Notes under the pieces: generated by a model
Seen by the model: the letters and a program-made list of their open reading frames with translations, nothing else
Told to the model about the DNA's origin: nothing
The model's database searches: none
Assembly (NCBI RefSeq): GCF_004337705.1
Contig: NZ_SKBU01000009.1
Coordinates: 1 to 63,179 of the forward strand
Direction of reading: 5' to 3'
DNA from: Rubrobacter taiwanensis
GTDB lineage: Bacteria; Actinomycetota; Rubrobacteria; Rubrobacterales; Rubrobacteraceae
Length of the DNA: 63,179 nt
Shown: positions 50,433 to 63,179 of the stretch, piece by piece
How positions within the stretch are numbered: position 1 is the stretch's first letter
Layout of the letters: every line of letters starts with the position of its first letter
Program-made: the position numbers and the translations under genes

Positions 50433-51432
50433 GGCCAGGGTGATCACCTATCGTGAAGCCGTCCGGGAGGCGATGGTGCAGGCTATGCGCCACAACGAAG
50501 AGGTCTTCCTGATGGGCGAGGACGTGGGGGTCTACGGCGGTGCCTTCGGCGTGAGCCGGGGCATGGTCGAGGAGTTCGGCGAAGATAGGGTTGTGGACAC
50601 CCCGCTCTCCGAGGCTGGCTTCGTGGGCTTGTGCACCGGGGCGGCCCTTCTGGGCATGCGTCCCATCGCCGAGATCCAATTCTCGGACTTCATAACCCAC
50701 TGTATGGACCAGCTCGTGAACCAGGCGGCCAAGGTGCGCTACATGTTCGGCGGCGAGGCCTCGGTCCCGCTGGTGGTGCGCACGCCCGGAGGAGCCGGGA
50801 CCGGGGCCGCAGCCCAGCACTCCCAGAGCCTCGAGGCCTGGTTCGTCCACGTTCCGGGCCTGAAGGTCGTAATGCCCTCAACCCCCTACGACGCCAAGGG
50901 GCTGCTGCTCGCCGCCCTTGACGATCCCAACCCCGTGATCTTCTACGAGCACAAACTCCTCTACAACCGCAAGGGTGAGGTGCCGGAAGATCTCTACCGC
51001 GTTCCTCTGGGTGAGGCTGCCCTCAGCCGCGAGGGGGAGGACGTTACCCTCGTCGCGGCCGGGCTGATGCACCACTACGCGCTGGAGGCCGCCGACGCTC
51101 TCTCCGGCGAAGGGGTGGAGGCCGAGGTTATAGACCTGCGCACCCTCTCGCCGATGGACCACAGGACCGTGGCACGCTCGGTGGAGAAGACCGGCAAGCT
51201 CGTCGTGGTCGAGGAGGATGTGAAGACCTGTGGCTGGGGGGCCGAGGTCGTCTCCCGGATCGTGGAGAGCGAGAGCTTCTACGCCCTGGACCGTTCCCCG
51301 GCCCGGGTTGCGGCGGCCGACGTTCCCATCCCCTACAACAGGCGGCTGGAAGCTTACGTGCGGCCCACTCCGGAGAAGGTGGTTGAGGCGGTAAAGGCCC
51401 TTTTGGACGCTCGGGTGGGGGTGTATGCCTGA
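50425..51432 (+). CDS. acoB: TPP-dependent 2-oxoacid/acetoin dehydrogenase E1 beta
   Basis: 335 residues, starting inside acoA (8-base overlap) with GGAGGACGTGT before the [110 protein letters not shown] and [15 protein letters not shown] are the family blocks. It completes the alpha2beta2 E1 enzyme. Confidence 0.92.
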
Positions 51433-52643
51433 TGGCTGCCGAACTGAAGGTTCCCCGGCTGAACATGGACATGGAGGAGGCCACCATCATCCGGTGGCTG
51501 GTCGAGGAGGGCGATGAGGTGAAGGAGGGAGACCCCGTTCTGGAGATAGATACGGACAAGGTCTCCTTCGAGCTTGAGGCTCCGGCCGACGGTATCGTGC
51601 GCAACCTCCGCGGTGCGGCAGGAGATGTCGTGCCCGTGGGGACGACATTACTCTACATCGCCGCTCCGGGCGAAGAGGTGCCGGAGACCGGGAGAGAGGC
51701 TGCCGGAACCCCCGCCGAGCCGCAGAGGGAGCTTGCGACATCCGCTCCACCGAGGGAGCCTGGAACCGATGGGAAGGGCCGGAGCCCGGTCCGGGCCTCT
51801 CCGGCGGCCCGCCGGGCCGCCGCCCAGCGGGGTTTGGCCATAGAGGCCATCGCCGGGTCCGGACCCGGCGGGCGGGTCTATCTTTCGGACGTTCTCGAGG
51901 CCGATGTTCGCCGGCAGCCGCGCGAAGTTCCGGCCCCTCCAGAGGGAGAGCCCTCGGCAGCTGGGGCGCTCCGGAGGGAGAAGCTCTCCCGCATCCGGCG
52001 CATTGGCGCCGAACGGACGGCCCGCAGCTTCGCGGAGGTGCCGCACTTCTACCTGAGGCGGGAGCTCGGGGCCGACCGGCTGCTTGAGCTGCGGGAGCGC
52101 CTGAAGGAGAGGCTTGATCCCGCGCCCACCCTCACGGATCTTCTGGCGCTGGCCGTCGCCCGGACGCTCAGGAGCCATCCGCGGCTCAACGCCCGTTACA
52201 TAGAGGGCGGCGAGATGGAGCTGAACCCGCGGGTCAATCTGGGAATAGCGGTGGCCACGGAGGAAGGGCTTCTGGTGCCGGTGGTGAAGGGGGCCGATGC
52301 GCTCCCTCTGAGGGAGCTGGTCCCGGCGGTCAGGGATCTCATCCTGCGGGCGCGGGAGGGCCGGCTCGGGAGCGAGGACCTCTCGGGAGGAACCTTTACC
52401 CTCTCCAACCTGGGGATGATGGAGGTGGATGGGTTCGACGCCATCATAAACCCGCCGCAGGCGGCCATCCTGGCGGTAGGGAGGGTGCGGACCGTTCCGG
52501 AGTGGCGCGAGGACGAGTGGGTGCCGCGGCGCGTGATCTCGGCTACGCTCTCGGTGGATCACCGGGTGGCCGACGGCGCCGACGGGGCTCGGTTCCTCAT
52601 GGACCTGCAGTCCGTGCTGCTGGACTGGGAGCTCCTGCTGTGA
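51432..52643 (+). CDS. acoC: dihydrolipoamide acyltransferase E2
   Basis: 403 residues, start overlapping the acoB stop by one base. The lipoyl domain (about 1-78) has the lipoylated Lys43 in EIDTDKVSF. The peripheral subunit-binding domain is at about 115-155 (ASPAARRAAAQRGLAIEAIAGSGPGGRVYLSDV). The catalytic domain (about 175-403) ends with SVDHRVADGADGARFL, holding the active-site His and Asp. It transfers the acyl group to CoA. No E3 (lipoamide dehydrogenase) gene follows; E3 must come from elsewhere. Confidence 0.93.
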   Translation: MAAELKVPRLNMDMEEATIIRWLVEEGDEVKEGDPVLEIDTDKVSFELEAPADGIVRNLRGAAGDVVPVGTTLLYIAAPGEEVPETGREAAGTPAEPQRELATSAPPREPGTDGKGRSPVRASPAARRAAAQRGLAIEAIAGSGPGGRVYLSDVLEADVRRQPREVPAPPEGEPSAAGALRREKLSRIRRIGAERTARSFAEVPHFYLRRELGADRLLELRERLKERLDPAPTLTDLLALAVARTLRSHPRLNARYIEGGEMELNPRVNLGIAVATEEGLLVPVVKGADALPLRELVPAVRDLILRAREGRLGSEDLSGGTFTLSNLGMMEVDGFDAIINPPQAAILAVGRVRTVPEWREDEWVPRRVISATLSVDHRVADGADGARFLMDLQSVLLDWELLL

Positions 52644-60483: not shown

Positions 60484-61356
60484 GTGGCTGTCTCCTGGCG
60501 AACGGTGGCGGCGTTCGCTGCCTTGGTCCTTATCTGGGGCTCGGCGTTCTCGTTCATCAAGGTGGGACTGGACTACTCCCCGCCGGTGCTCTTCGCGGGC
60601 GTCCGGACCCTTGTCGGCGGCTTCGTGCTCGTAGCGGCCGCCTCAGTGTGGGGCGGGGCGCCGGAACTGAAGCGGACGTGGCCGATGCTCCTCGTCTCGG
60701 CGCTCTTCAACGTGATCCTGTTCATCGGGCTGCAGACGTTCGCCGTCGAGTACCTGACGAGCGGGCTAGCGGCCGTCCTGGTCTACCTGCAGCCCATCCT
60801 GGTAGGGGTCATGGCCTGGCTCTGGCTCGCCGAACCTCTCTCCGTCCCGAAGGTTGCCGGGCTGTTGCTGGGCTTCGCCGGGGTCGTCGCCATCAGCGCC
60901 GGGAGCCTGAACGGCGGCTTCTCGTTCGCCGGGATCCTGGTCGGCGTCCTGGCGGCGCTCGCCTGGGCGGCCGGAACGGTGTACTTCAAGCGGGTGCAGG
61001 CACGGGTCTCGATGCTCTGGTTCGTCGCCGGGTCGTTCATGACCGGCGGAGTCGTGTTGCTGCTCGCCGGGCTCGCGGTTGAGCCGTGGAGCGGGATAGA
61101 GTGGACCGGAGCCTTCCTCTTCAGCCTCTTTCATACGGGCGTGCTGGGCTGCTCGGTGGCCTGGATGCTCTGGCTCTGGCTGGTGCGGGCCGGCGAGGCC
61201 AGCCGCGTCTCCGCCTACGCCTTCTTCGTGCCGCTGGTCTCCGTGATCCTCGGAGCCCTCTTCCTGAACGAGCCCGTCGAGCTCTCCCTGCTGCTCGGCG
61301 CGGCCTGCATCGTGACCGGGATCTACCTGGTCAACCGCCGTCCCGCCAAGGGCTAG
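60484..61356 (+). CDS. EamA/DMT-family transporter
   Basis: 290 residues from a GTG, ten predicted helices in two EamA repeats (about 7-135 and 148-285). FAALVLIWGSAFSFIKVGLDYSPPVLFAGVRTLVGG opens repeat 1 and LVGVLAALAWAAGTVYFKRV opens repeat 2; ALFLNEPVELSLLLGAACIVTGIYLVNRR closes it. The family exports amino acids or other metabolites. Its end overlaps the convergent MFS gene by four bases. Confidence 0.9.
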   Translation: MAVSWRTVAAFAALVLIWGSAFSFIKVGLDYSPPVLFAGVRTLVGGFVLVAAASVWGGAPELKRTWPMLLVSALFNVILFIGLQTFAVEYLTSGLAAVLVYLQPILVGVMAWLWLAEPLSVPKVAGLLLGFAGVVAISAGSLNGGFSFAGILVGVLAALAWAAGTVYFKRVQARVSMLWFVAGSFMTGGVVLLLAGLAVEPWSGIEWTGAFLFSLFHTGVLGCSVAWMLWLWLVRAGEASRVSAYAFFVPLVSVILGALFLNEPVELSLLLGAACIVTGIYLVNRRPAKG

Positions 61357-62498
61357 GGAGCCCGCCGCATATCTAGGCGCACCAGGGCCATCGCCGCGAG
61401 CAGCAGCGCGCCCGTCAGGTAGAAGGCCGGTGAGAACCCCGCGGCCTCGATCACGAGCCCGAAGGCGAGCGCGCCCGCTCCCGTCCCGGCGTCGAAGGCC
61501 ACGTTCCACAGCGTGCTGGCCAGCCCGTACTCGCTGCGCTTGACGCGGTTCATCATCAGGACCAGCGTCGCGTTCTGGAGCGCCCCCAGCCCGAGGCCGT
61601 AGACCACAGCTCCGCCTATCAGGAGGGGGGCCTGGCCGGACTGCGCCAGCGCCACCATACCCGCCGCGGCGGCGGCGAGACCCGGAGCCAGGAGCAGGTG
61701 CGGGCCGTAGCGGTCGCCAAGCCGGCCCGCCCACCAGCGCGCGAAGGTGGTGGTGAGCCCGAGGACGAGCAGCGCCGCGGCCGCTGCGCCGGGAGCGGCG
61801 AGGGGCAGGAACGTCACCACCACGCCGGTCGAAACGGTGGTCGCCGTGAAGACCGCGAACGGTCTCAGGAGCGCGCCGCGCCGCAGCCCGGCCAGGAACC
61901 GGCCGTCTTCGCCCGGAGAGGAGGGTGGAGCCGCCCGGATGCCGAGTGCCGCCGCGATGCCGAGCAGCGGCGCCGCAGCCGCAAGGGTGAAGACCGCGGG
62001 GTACCCGGTGTTCTGGGCGAGCCAGATCCCGAACGGCAGGCCGAAGACCGTCGGCAGGGCTGCGGCGAGGCCGTAGAGCCCGATACCCTCGCCGCGGCGT
62101 TCGACCGGGATGAGCTCGGCGATGAGCGCCGCCGAGACGACGGTCGTGATCCCGAACCCCACCCCCCTCAGCAGCGTCACCAGCAATATCGAGGGCACGC
62201 TCTCGGCCGCGGGATAGAAGAAGGTGGGAAGCCCCAGGAAGAGCAGTCCGGCGGCGAGCGCGGGCCGGTAGCCGAAGCGGCCCAGGATGCGGGGCATCTG
62301 GATCTGAACGACCACGGTCGTCAGCATCAGCGCCATCGTCGCCAGCCCGGCGTCCGAACTCCCGCCCCCCGCGTCCCGCACGTAGAGCGGCACCACCGAG
62401 AGCAGGAGCTGGAAGCTGGAGAAGGCCGCAAGCGAGGTGAAGAGCAGCAGCAGTACCTGCCGGGTGAAGATGGTGCCCCTGTAAGCCTTCCGCGCCAT
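61353..62498 (-). CDS. MFS transporter
   Basis: 381 residues, twelve hydrophobic segments in two halves. RQVLLLLFTSLAAFSSFQLLLSVVPLYVRDAGG is helix 1-2 and the Arg-rich GRFGYRPALAAGLL the usual loop 2-3 motif; RWWAGRLGDRYGPHLLLAPG is its repeat in the second half. Drug- or metabolite-efflux type; substrate unknown. I chose the ATG at 62498 because the protein then starts at the first helix; no ribosome site is visible, and TAGTAT about nine bases upstream hints at a leaderless mRNA. Confidence 0.87.
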   Translation of the reverse strand: MARKAYRGTIFTRQVLLLLFTSLAAFSSFQLLLSVVPLYVRDAGGGSSDAGLATMALMLTTVVVQIQMPRILGRFGYRPALAAGLLFLGLPTFFYPAAESVPSILLVTLLRGVGFGITTVVSAALIAELIPVERRGEGIGLYGLAAALPTVFGLPFGIWLAQNTGYPAVFTLAAAAPLLGIAAALGIRAAPPSSPGEDGRFLAGLRRGALLRPFAVFTATTVSTGVVVTFLPLAAPGAAAAALLVLGLTTTFARWWAGRLGDRYGPHLLLAPGLAAAAAGMVALAQSGQAPLLIGGAVVYGLGLGALQNATLVLMMNRVKRSEYGLASTLWNVAFDAGTGAGALAFGLVIEAAGFSPAFYLTGALLLAAMALVRLDMRRAP

Positions 62499-62540: not shown

Positions 62541-62569
62541 TTGACCCGGATGTTGCAAGGTAGTAGATT
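62541..62569 (+). promoter_or_regulatory. promoter of the solute-binding protein gene
   Basis: TTGACC (62541-62546), a 17-bp spacer and TAGATT (62564-62569), about 60 bases before the ATG at 62630. Confidence 0.55.
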
Positions 62570-62629
62570 CCTCTCTGGAGGAGACGGGCCATTCTGGCCG
62601 GGCGTTCCGCACCGGAAGAGGAGGACAAG

Positions 62630-63179
62630 ATGGGCAGGAGGAGGAGGGGCAGGATCAGCCGCCGGGACTTCCTGAAGCTCGGCGGCGCGGGGCTCGCCGG
62701 AGCCGCGCTGGTGGGGAGCGCCGCCTGCACGCCTGCGGGCAACGGCGGCGGTAACGGCGGCGAGGGGCCCGTCACCCTCACCTTCTCGTTCGGTCCGGAC
62801 GAGTCCGGGACGATGCAGGAGCTGATCGACCGCTTCAACCGGCAGCACGAGGGGGAGATCCAGGTCGAGTGGCGGCAGATGCCCGCGGATACCGGCTAGT
62901 ACTTCGACCAGCTGCGCACCGAGTTCCAGGCCGGCGGCGGCGAGATAGACGTGATTAGCGGGGATGTGATCTGGCCCGCGCAGTTCGCCGCCAACGGCTG
63001 GATCGTCGACCTCTCGGACCGCTTCGGCAACCGGGGAGACTTCCTCGAAGGCACCATCCAGTCCAACACCTACGAGGGGGCAATCTACGGAGTGCCCTGG
63101 TTCACCGACGCCGGCATGCTCTACTACAGGGCCGACCTGCTCGAAGAGGCGGGGGTGGAGCCGCCCACAACCTGGGACG
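62630..63179 (+). pseudogene. extracellular sugar-binding protein, interrupted by in-frame TAG; cut by window edge
   Basis: It begins with the Tat signal RISRRDFLKLGGAGLAG and lipobox VGSAAC, then the ABC solute-binding fold (VTLTFSFGPDESGTMQELIDRFNRQHEGEIQVEWRQM). After ...MPADTG, codon 90 is TAG (62897-62899). The same frame then continues perfectly: YFDQLRTEFQAGGGEIDVISGDVIWPAQFAANGWIVDL ... GVPWFTDAGMLYYRADLLEEAG to the edge. Relatives usually have a Gln or similar residue there, and CAG to TAG is one base change. So this is a recent nonsense mutation, a sequencing error or, less likely, read-through. Transport genes would be expected beyond the edge. AGAGGAGG supports the start. Confidence 0.85.

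Follow-up and report, generated by a model that had tools for sequence, protein, structure and literature searches.

The window analyzed here, 63,179 bases in length, is the entire contig C57 of a draft genome of Rubrobacter taiwanensis (3,035,128 bases, 57 contigs), and it ends within the N-terminal part of a gene for a sugar-binding protein (SBP; 62630..63179, + strand). The frame starts with an ATG at 62630 and comprises 89 codons, an in-frame TAG at 62897-62899 (codon 90, + strand), and 93 further open codons up to the contig edge. When a residue is substituted for the stop, the domain SBP_bac_1 (PF01547) covers residues 56-183 in one piece across the TAG (E-value of 1.9e-24, profile positions 2-132), and the match passes the curated cut-off (87.6 versus 26 bits). 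A profile search of the genome contigs likewise flagged one TAG within this match. Translation and the domain match across the stop confirm the original prediction of a sugar-binding lipoprotein frame that is interrupted at codon 90 and retains family similarity up to the edge. Chance does not explain two frames of 89 and 93 codons that belong to the same family and are in register.

Several features frame the gene. A twin-arginine-type lipoprotein signal region (ISRRDFLK ... SAAC; 62654..62728, + strand) was assigned by Pfam TAT_signal, which scored barely above its cut-off at residues 9-27 (22.8 versus 22.7 bits), and the lipoprotein cysteine was assigned by eye. A Shine-Dalgarno-like GGAGG (62620..62624, + strand), read in the sequence, is located 5 bases upstream of the ATG. 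The promoter-like site TTGACC-17-TAGATT (62541..62569, + strand) was recognized only by its match to the consensus, with one site found and 0.1 expected from shuffled sequences. Between this site and the start codon, we noted by eye a short palindrome (GGCCA-TTC-TGGCC, 62587-62599) that could be a putative operator. Neither permease nor ATPase genes adjoin the SBP gene on C57; instead, the upstream neighbor is a divergent MFS transporter gene (61353..62498, - strand; MFS_1, E-value of 5.1e-35), which lies outside the ABC system.

At the contig edge, the assembly broke within a repeat common to two SBP paralogues, and both genes are cut there. A second copy of the N-terminal part, 90% identical over about 525 bases, is found on contig C36, where an open frame of 193 codons without any stop also ends at the contig end. 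C57 and C36 stop at the same point of the SBP, and two C-terminal halves, on C22 and C35, start there at contig ends. The last 88 bases of C57 (63092..63179, + strand) are identical to the end of C36 by copy comparison, the first 88 bases are common to C22 and C35, and all four possible joins show the same 18-base overlap. SBP_bac_1 matches over both gene halves, and the two C-terminal halves are both open to a natural stop, which is TAG in each case. The window copy thus lacks an uninterrupted two-lobe frame, with a TAG at codon 90 and its C-terminal half on another contig. Comparison with the C36 copy, which has no stop at this site, supports the view that one base change suffices for the TAG. 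Apart from the TAG, the window copy shows little decay, and the earlier statement that no further decay is visible holds in this slightly weaker form. A loop two codons shorter than in C36 was considered as a second lesion and rejected; the same length occurs in 15 of 117 aligned relatives (120 rows, three of which have no letters at that place).

A sequencing or consensus error near the contig end, in which case the true codon is a sense codon and the SBP may be functional, is an unlikely alternative. The distance from the TAG to the contig end, where a repeat is broken, is 280 bases; the site differs by one base from the C36 copy, and there is little other decay. These points are opposed by three others. 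The stop base is absent from the C36 copy, so that a TAG produced by mixing of the two copies could be rejected; copy-specific differences are present within about 50 bases on either side of the TAG, so that reads would be sortable; and nonsense codons are not rife in the assembly, with a stop in one of 20 SBP_bac_1 matches (the window gene itself) and in one of 64 ABC_tran matches (a weak partial match of 26.7 bits). The latter match, with an internal TAG, is located at G000 C49:152503-152625, with an SBP_bac_1 match (C49:150186-151052) at a distance of about 1.5 kb, and possibly represents a decayed ATPase gene.

The genes next to the other three SBP fragments bear on the question of which halves belong together. 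On C36, the gene for a GH3 protein is followed by that for an ATPase containing a MalK OB domain and then by the SBP N-terminal half, and C22 carries the SBP C-terminal half, two permease genes, and a gene for an HD-domain protein. According to NCBIfam, the ATPase is above the UgpC cut-off (491.7 versus 432 bits) and the GH3 protein just below the beta-N-acetylhexosaminidase cut-off (203.1 versus 207 bits). Within the genome, 23 further matches to the first C22 permease show ≤36% identity each, and none of them is thus a close homologue. Seven stretches from relatives were fetched, two for their stops and five for gene order. Four of the latter (L187, L190, L191, and L192) show the order GH3-ATPase-SBP-permease-permease-HD around one SBP gene, and the fifth (L193) has an orphan SBP gene without any of the five operon partners. 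Because relatives keep this order, C36 would continue into C22, resulting in an open importer operon of GH3, ATPase, SBP, two permease, and HD genes. This leaves C35 for the window copy, and the gene at 62630..63179 most likely runs on past the contig end onto C35. It would then be an orphan between the MFS gene and a methyltransferase gene, which adjoins the SBP C-terminal half on C35 without any transporter genes. A complete ABC sugar importer operon is therefore not found at the window, its parts being located on C36 and C22. Regarding the transporter genes that had been suspected beyond the edge, none would follow on C35 by the proposed join, whereas two permease genes exist on C22 and an ATPase gene on C36.

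A wider set of loci was analyzed for the same gene neighborhood. It comprises the best 80 of 137 matches, most of these closest loci being from Rubrobacter or Rubrobacteraceae assemblies; the SBP shows at least 50% identity in 63 of the 80 and less in 17. Among the 63 loci, 15 have matches to the ATPase upstream and to a permease downstream, four have the permease only, 26 have neither, and 18 are too short to judge. The 'neither' class is defined by at least about 1.5 kb on both sides with no tblastn match at 1e-15 to these permeases and none of at least 50% to the ATPase, a screen that would miss unlike transporters nearby; six of the 26 loci contain a distant ATPase match (32-36%). This set overlaps with the gene-order set at two places (L187 = L035 and L190 = L047). 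We compared both C-terminal halves with the SBPs of these loci. The C22 half is nearer than the C35 half to the SBPs of L187, L190, L191, and L192, and also in 12 of the 15 operon loci, with one tie and two reversed cases (rounded identities). Of the 26 orphan loci, used as a control, 14 are nearer to the C22 half and 12 to the C35 half (rounded identities), and orphan L193 prefers the C35 half only slightly (63.0 versus 61.8%). This half-by-half comparison is soft, and the proposed pairing draws mainly on synteny. The other pairing, i.e., C57 into C22, with the stop in the copy beside the permeases, and C36 into C35, gains from this softness and from the contig ends, which by themselves do not discriminate between the four joins. 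However, it is very unlikely, because relatives keep all six genes together and, in this genome, C36 bears the GH3-ATPase part of that arrangement and C22 the permease-HD part.

Many Rubrobacteraceae carry orphan SBP genes of the window family besides the operon copies (e.g., at L032, L033, L052, L061, L064, L071, and L088). A conserved genomic place of the orphan was considered and rejected, as neither the window MFS gene nor the C35 methyltransferase gene had a match listed at 1e-15 in the best 80 loci, which include flanks of 5 kb at most and in many cases less. Literature searches retrieved nothing on this SBP family among the matches listed. A related idea, orphan ATPases serving several sugar importers, appears in PMC7658222.

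Readthrough or reassignment of UAG, by which a full-length orphan SBP is made, is highly improbable. It gains from the conserved downstream frame and the presence of promoter-like and Shine-Dalgarno-like sites, but the suppression that the original prediction had named as a possible need is unlikely because none of the 44 tRNA genes found by an Rfam search of the genome, which could overlook tRNAs that are divergent or fall into assembly gaps, has the anticodon CTA, and because TAG is an ordinary stop here, terminating 17 of 33 window genes (as called by a simple filter on length and GC3) as well as both C-terminal halves of the SBP pair; amber suppression and code reassignment were rejected on these grounds. 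ARAGORN additionally called a tRNA-Gln (ctg) at 52275-52354 of the window, which is unlisted by the Rfam search and located inside a predicted gene (51432-52643); this call is probably false.

A family survey yielded 118 matches at 1e-20 or better in 39 genomes (38 with at least one match). Three of them contain stops: the window gene, with its TAG, and two matches in the fragmented genome G023, one with a TAG and the other with a TGA. None of the other 117 matches in the 39 genomes has a stop at the window's codon-90 site. The G023 TAG is several residues upstream of this site, and the TGA falls into a poorly matching N-terminus. The window copy thus has a premature stop that is missing from its homologues. 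In aligned loci with at least 50% identity, the codon-90 site is occupied by Q in 71, E in 16, A in five, D in one, and a gap in six of 99 rows; some places are included twice, and frames were cut at stops, so that this alignment is unable to show a stop. The in-frame TAG of G023 belongs to another SBP gene of the same family, L188 (G023:C351, 1660-2199), and, in this fragmented assembly, is probably due to chance or error.

Differences between the copies are unevenly distributed. The alignment of C57 with C36 shows 43 substitutions and six gap columns in 531, and that of C22 with C35 shows 96 substitutions and three gap columns in 800, clustered in both cases. The longest identical runs are 118 (C57/C36) and 107 bases (C22/C35), lengths reached by two and none of 5000 shuffles, respectively, and identical tracts are thus longer than overall divergence predicts. 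The simplest account suggested by this mosaic of identical and divergent segments would be interlocus gene conversion; uneven constraint along the gene could add to the pattern. Nei-Gojobori estimates were pS = 0.134 and pN = 0.064 for the N-terminal half, and pS = 0.207 and pN = 0.096 for the C-terminal half; with pN/pS near 0.5, the copies are neither clearly neutral nor strongly constrained relative to each other. At P85, D87, D130, and R131, the window copy has the relatives' common residue where C36 differs, and the reverse applies to S110, G133, and N134. Judged from these sequence comparisons, the window copy was presumably under selection until recently.

Exchange within genomes was also assessed for the family, using 49 SBP genes hand-picked from 19 genomes with at least two such genes (single-copy genomes and the short L077, L092, and L095 were omitted), of which 1126 of 1176 pairs with at least 800 aligned bases were kept. 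The ratio of the longest shared run to expectation was 1.71 within genomes (45 pairs) versus 1.50 between genomes (1081 pairs), a difference reached by three of 2000 label shuffles. The longest runs overall were found between genomes, and several within-genome pairs showed no excess. These values hint weakly at family-wide exchange within genomes, and shared codon bias could add to the excess.

We consider a recent nonsense mutation in a redundant orphan duplicate of the importer SBP to be the best explanation, with a probability of roughly 0.8. An orphan paralogue of the sugar-importer SBP would be located at the window end, the importer operon would be encoded elsewhere with open frames, and the orphan copy would have been hit by a single recent nonsense mutation. 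We infer that the TAG is present in the real genome and that the window copy is now non-functional; speaking against a loss of function, both C-terminal halves are open to the natural stop, and nothing but the TAG points to a loss. The expected product would be an 89-residue precursor consisting of the signal peptide and, as judged by eye, no more of lobe 1 than its first beta-alpha-beta part, and it is predicted not to bind sugar. Gene conversion with the operon copy would keep most of the window gene looking intact. The cell would lose at most an accessory binding protein, and the importer would be spared. The earlier suggestion that the transporter is recently dead is hence not supported, because the ATPase and the permeases pair by synteny with the unstopped C36/C22 copy and none of them lies beside the window copy on C57 or, by the proposed join, on C35. 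A premature stop in one redundant binding-protein gene is by itself of little weight; the result corrects a natural but unsupported dead-transporter inference drawn at a contig end, and it indicates a family pattern in which recombination may occur between orphan sugar-binding protein genes and one operon copy. A quite doubtful extension of this pattern is that, in Rubrobacteraceae, orphan SBP genes serve as a reservoir of sequence from which segments are exchanged with the SBP of one conserved importer operon, so that specificity varies, with a nonsense copy persisting as a donor and being restorable by conversion.

The gene pair resembles known systems in several respects. SBP_bac_1 over both halves is typical of family 1 SBPs of sugar ABC importers (PF01547), but the window copy ends at codon 90 and has no adjoining permease or ATPase gene. 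In this it is like orphan or satellite SBPs with a transporter encoded elsewhere, a comparison consistent with the 26 of 63 related loci without a similar permease or ATPase nearby; it differs from them by its nonsense codon, and the sharing of a transporter is presumed. The product of the orphan probably served a shared transporter as a second binding protein. Like recent single-mutation pseudogenes in duplicates, the window copy has one stop in an otherwise kept frame and an open paralogue in the genome; unlike typical recent pseudogenes, it shares long identical tracts with the other copy, as though conversion had corrected it. Among solved structures, both halves match best the maltose-binding protein MalE3 (6dtq; 6.6e-47 for the C22 half and 3.4e-23 for the C36 half), followed for the C-terminal half by a trehalose/maltose-binding protein (1eu8). 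By sequence, the importer is of the MalE/MalK kind, and the neighboring GH3 gene hints at amino-sugar oligosaccharides as a putative substrate.
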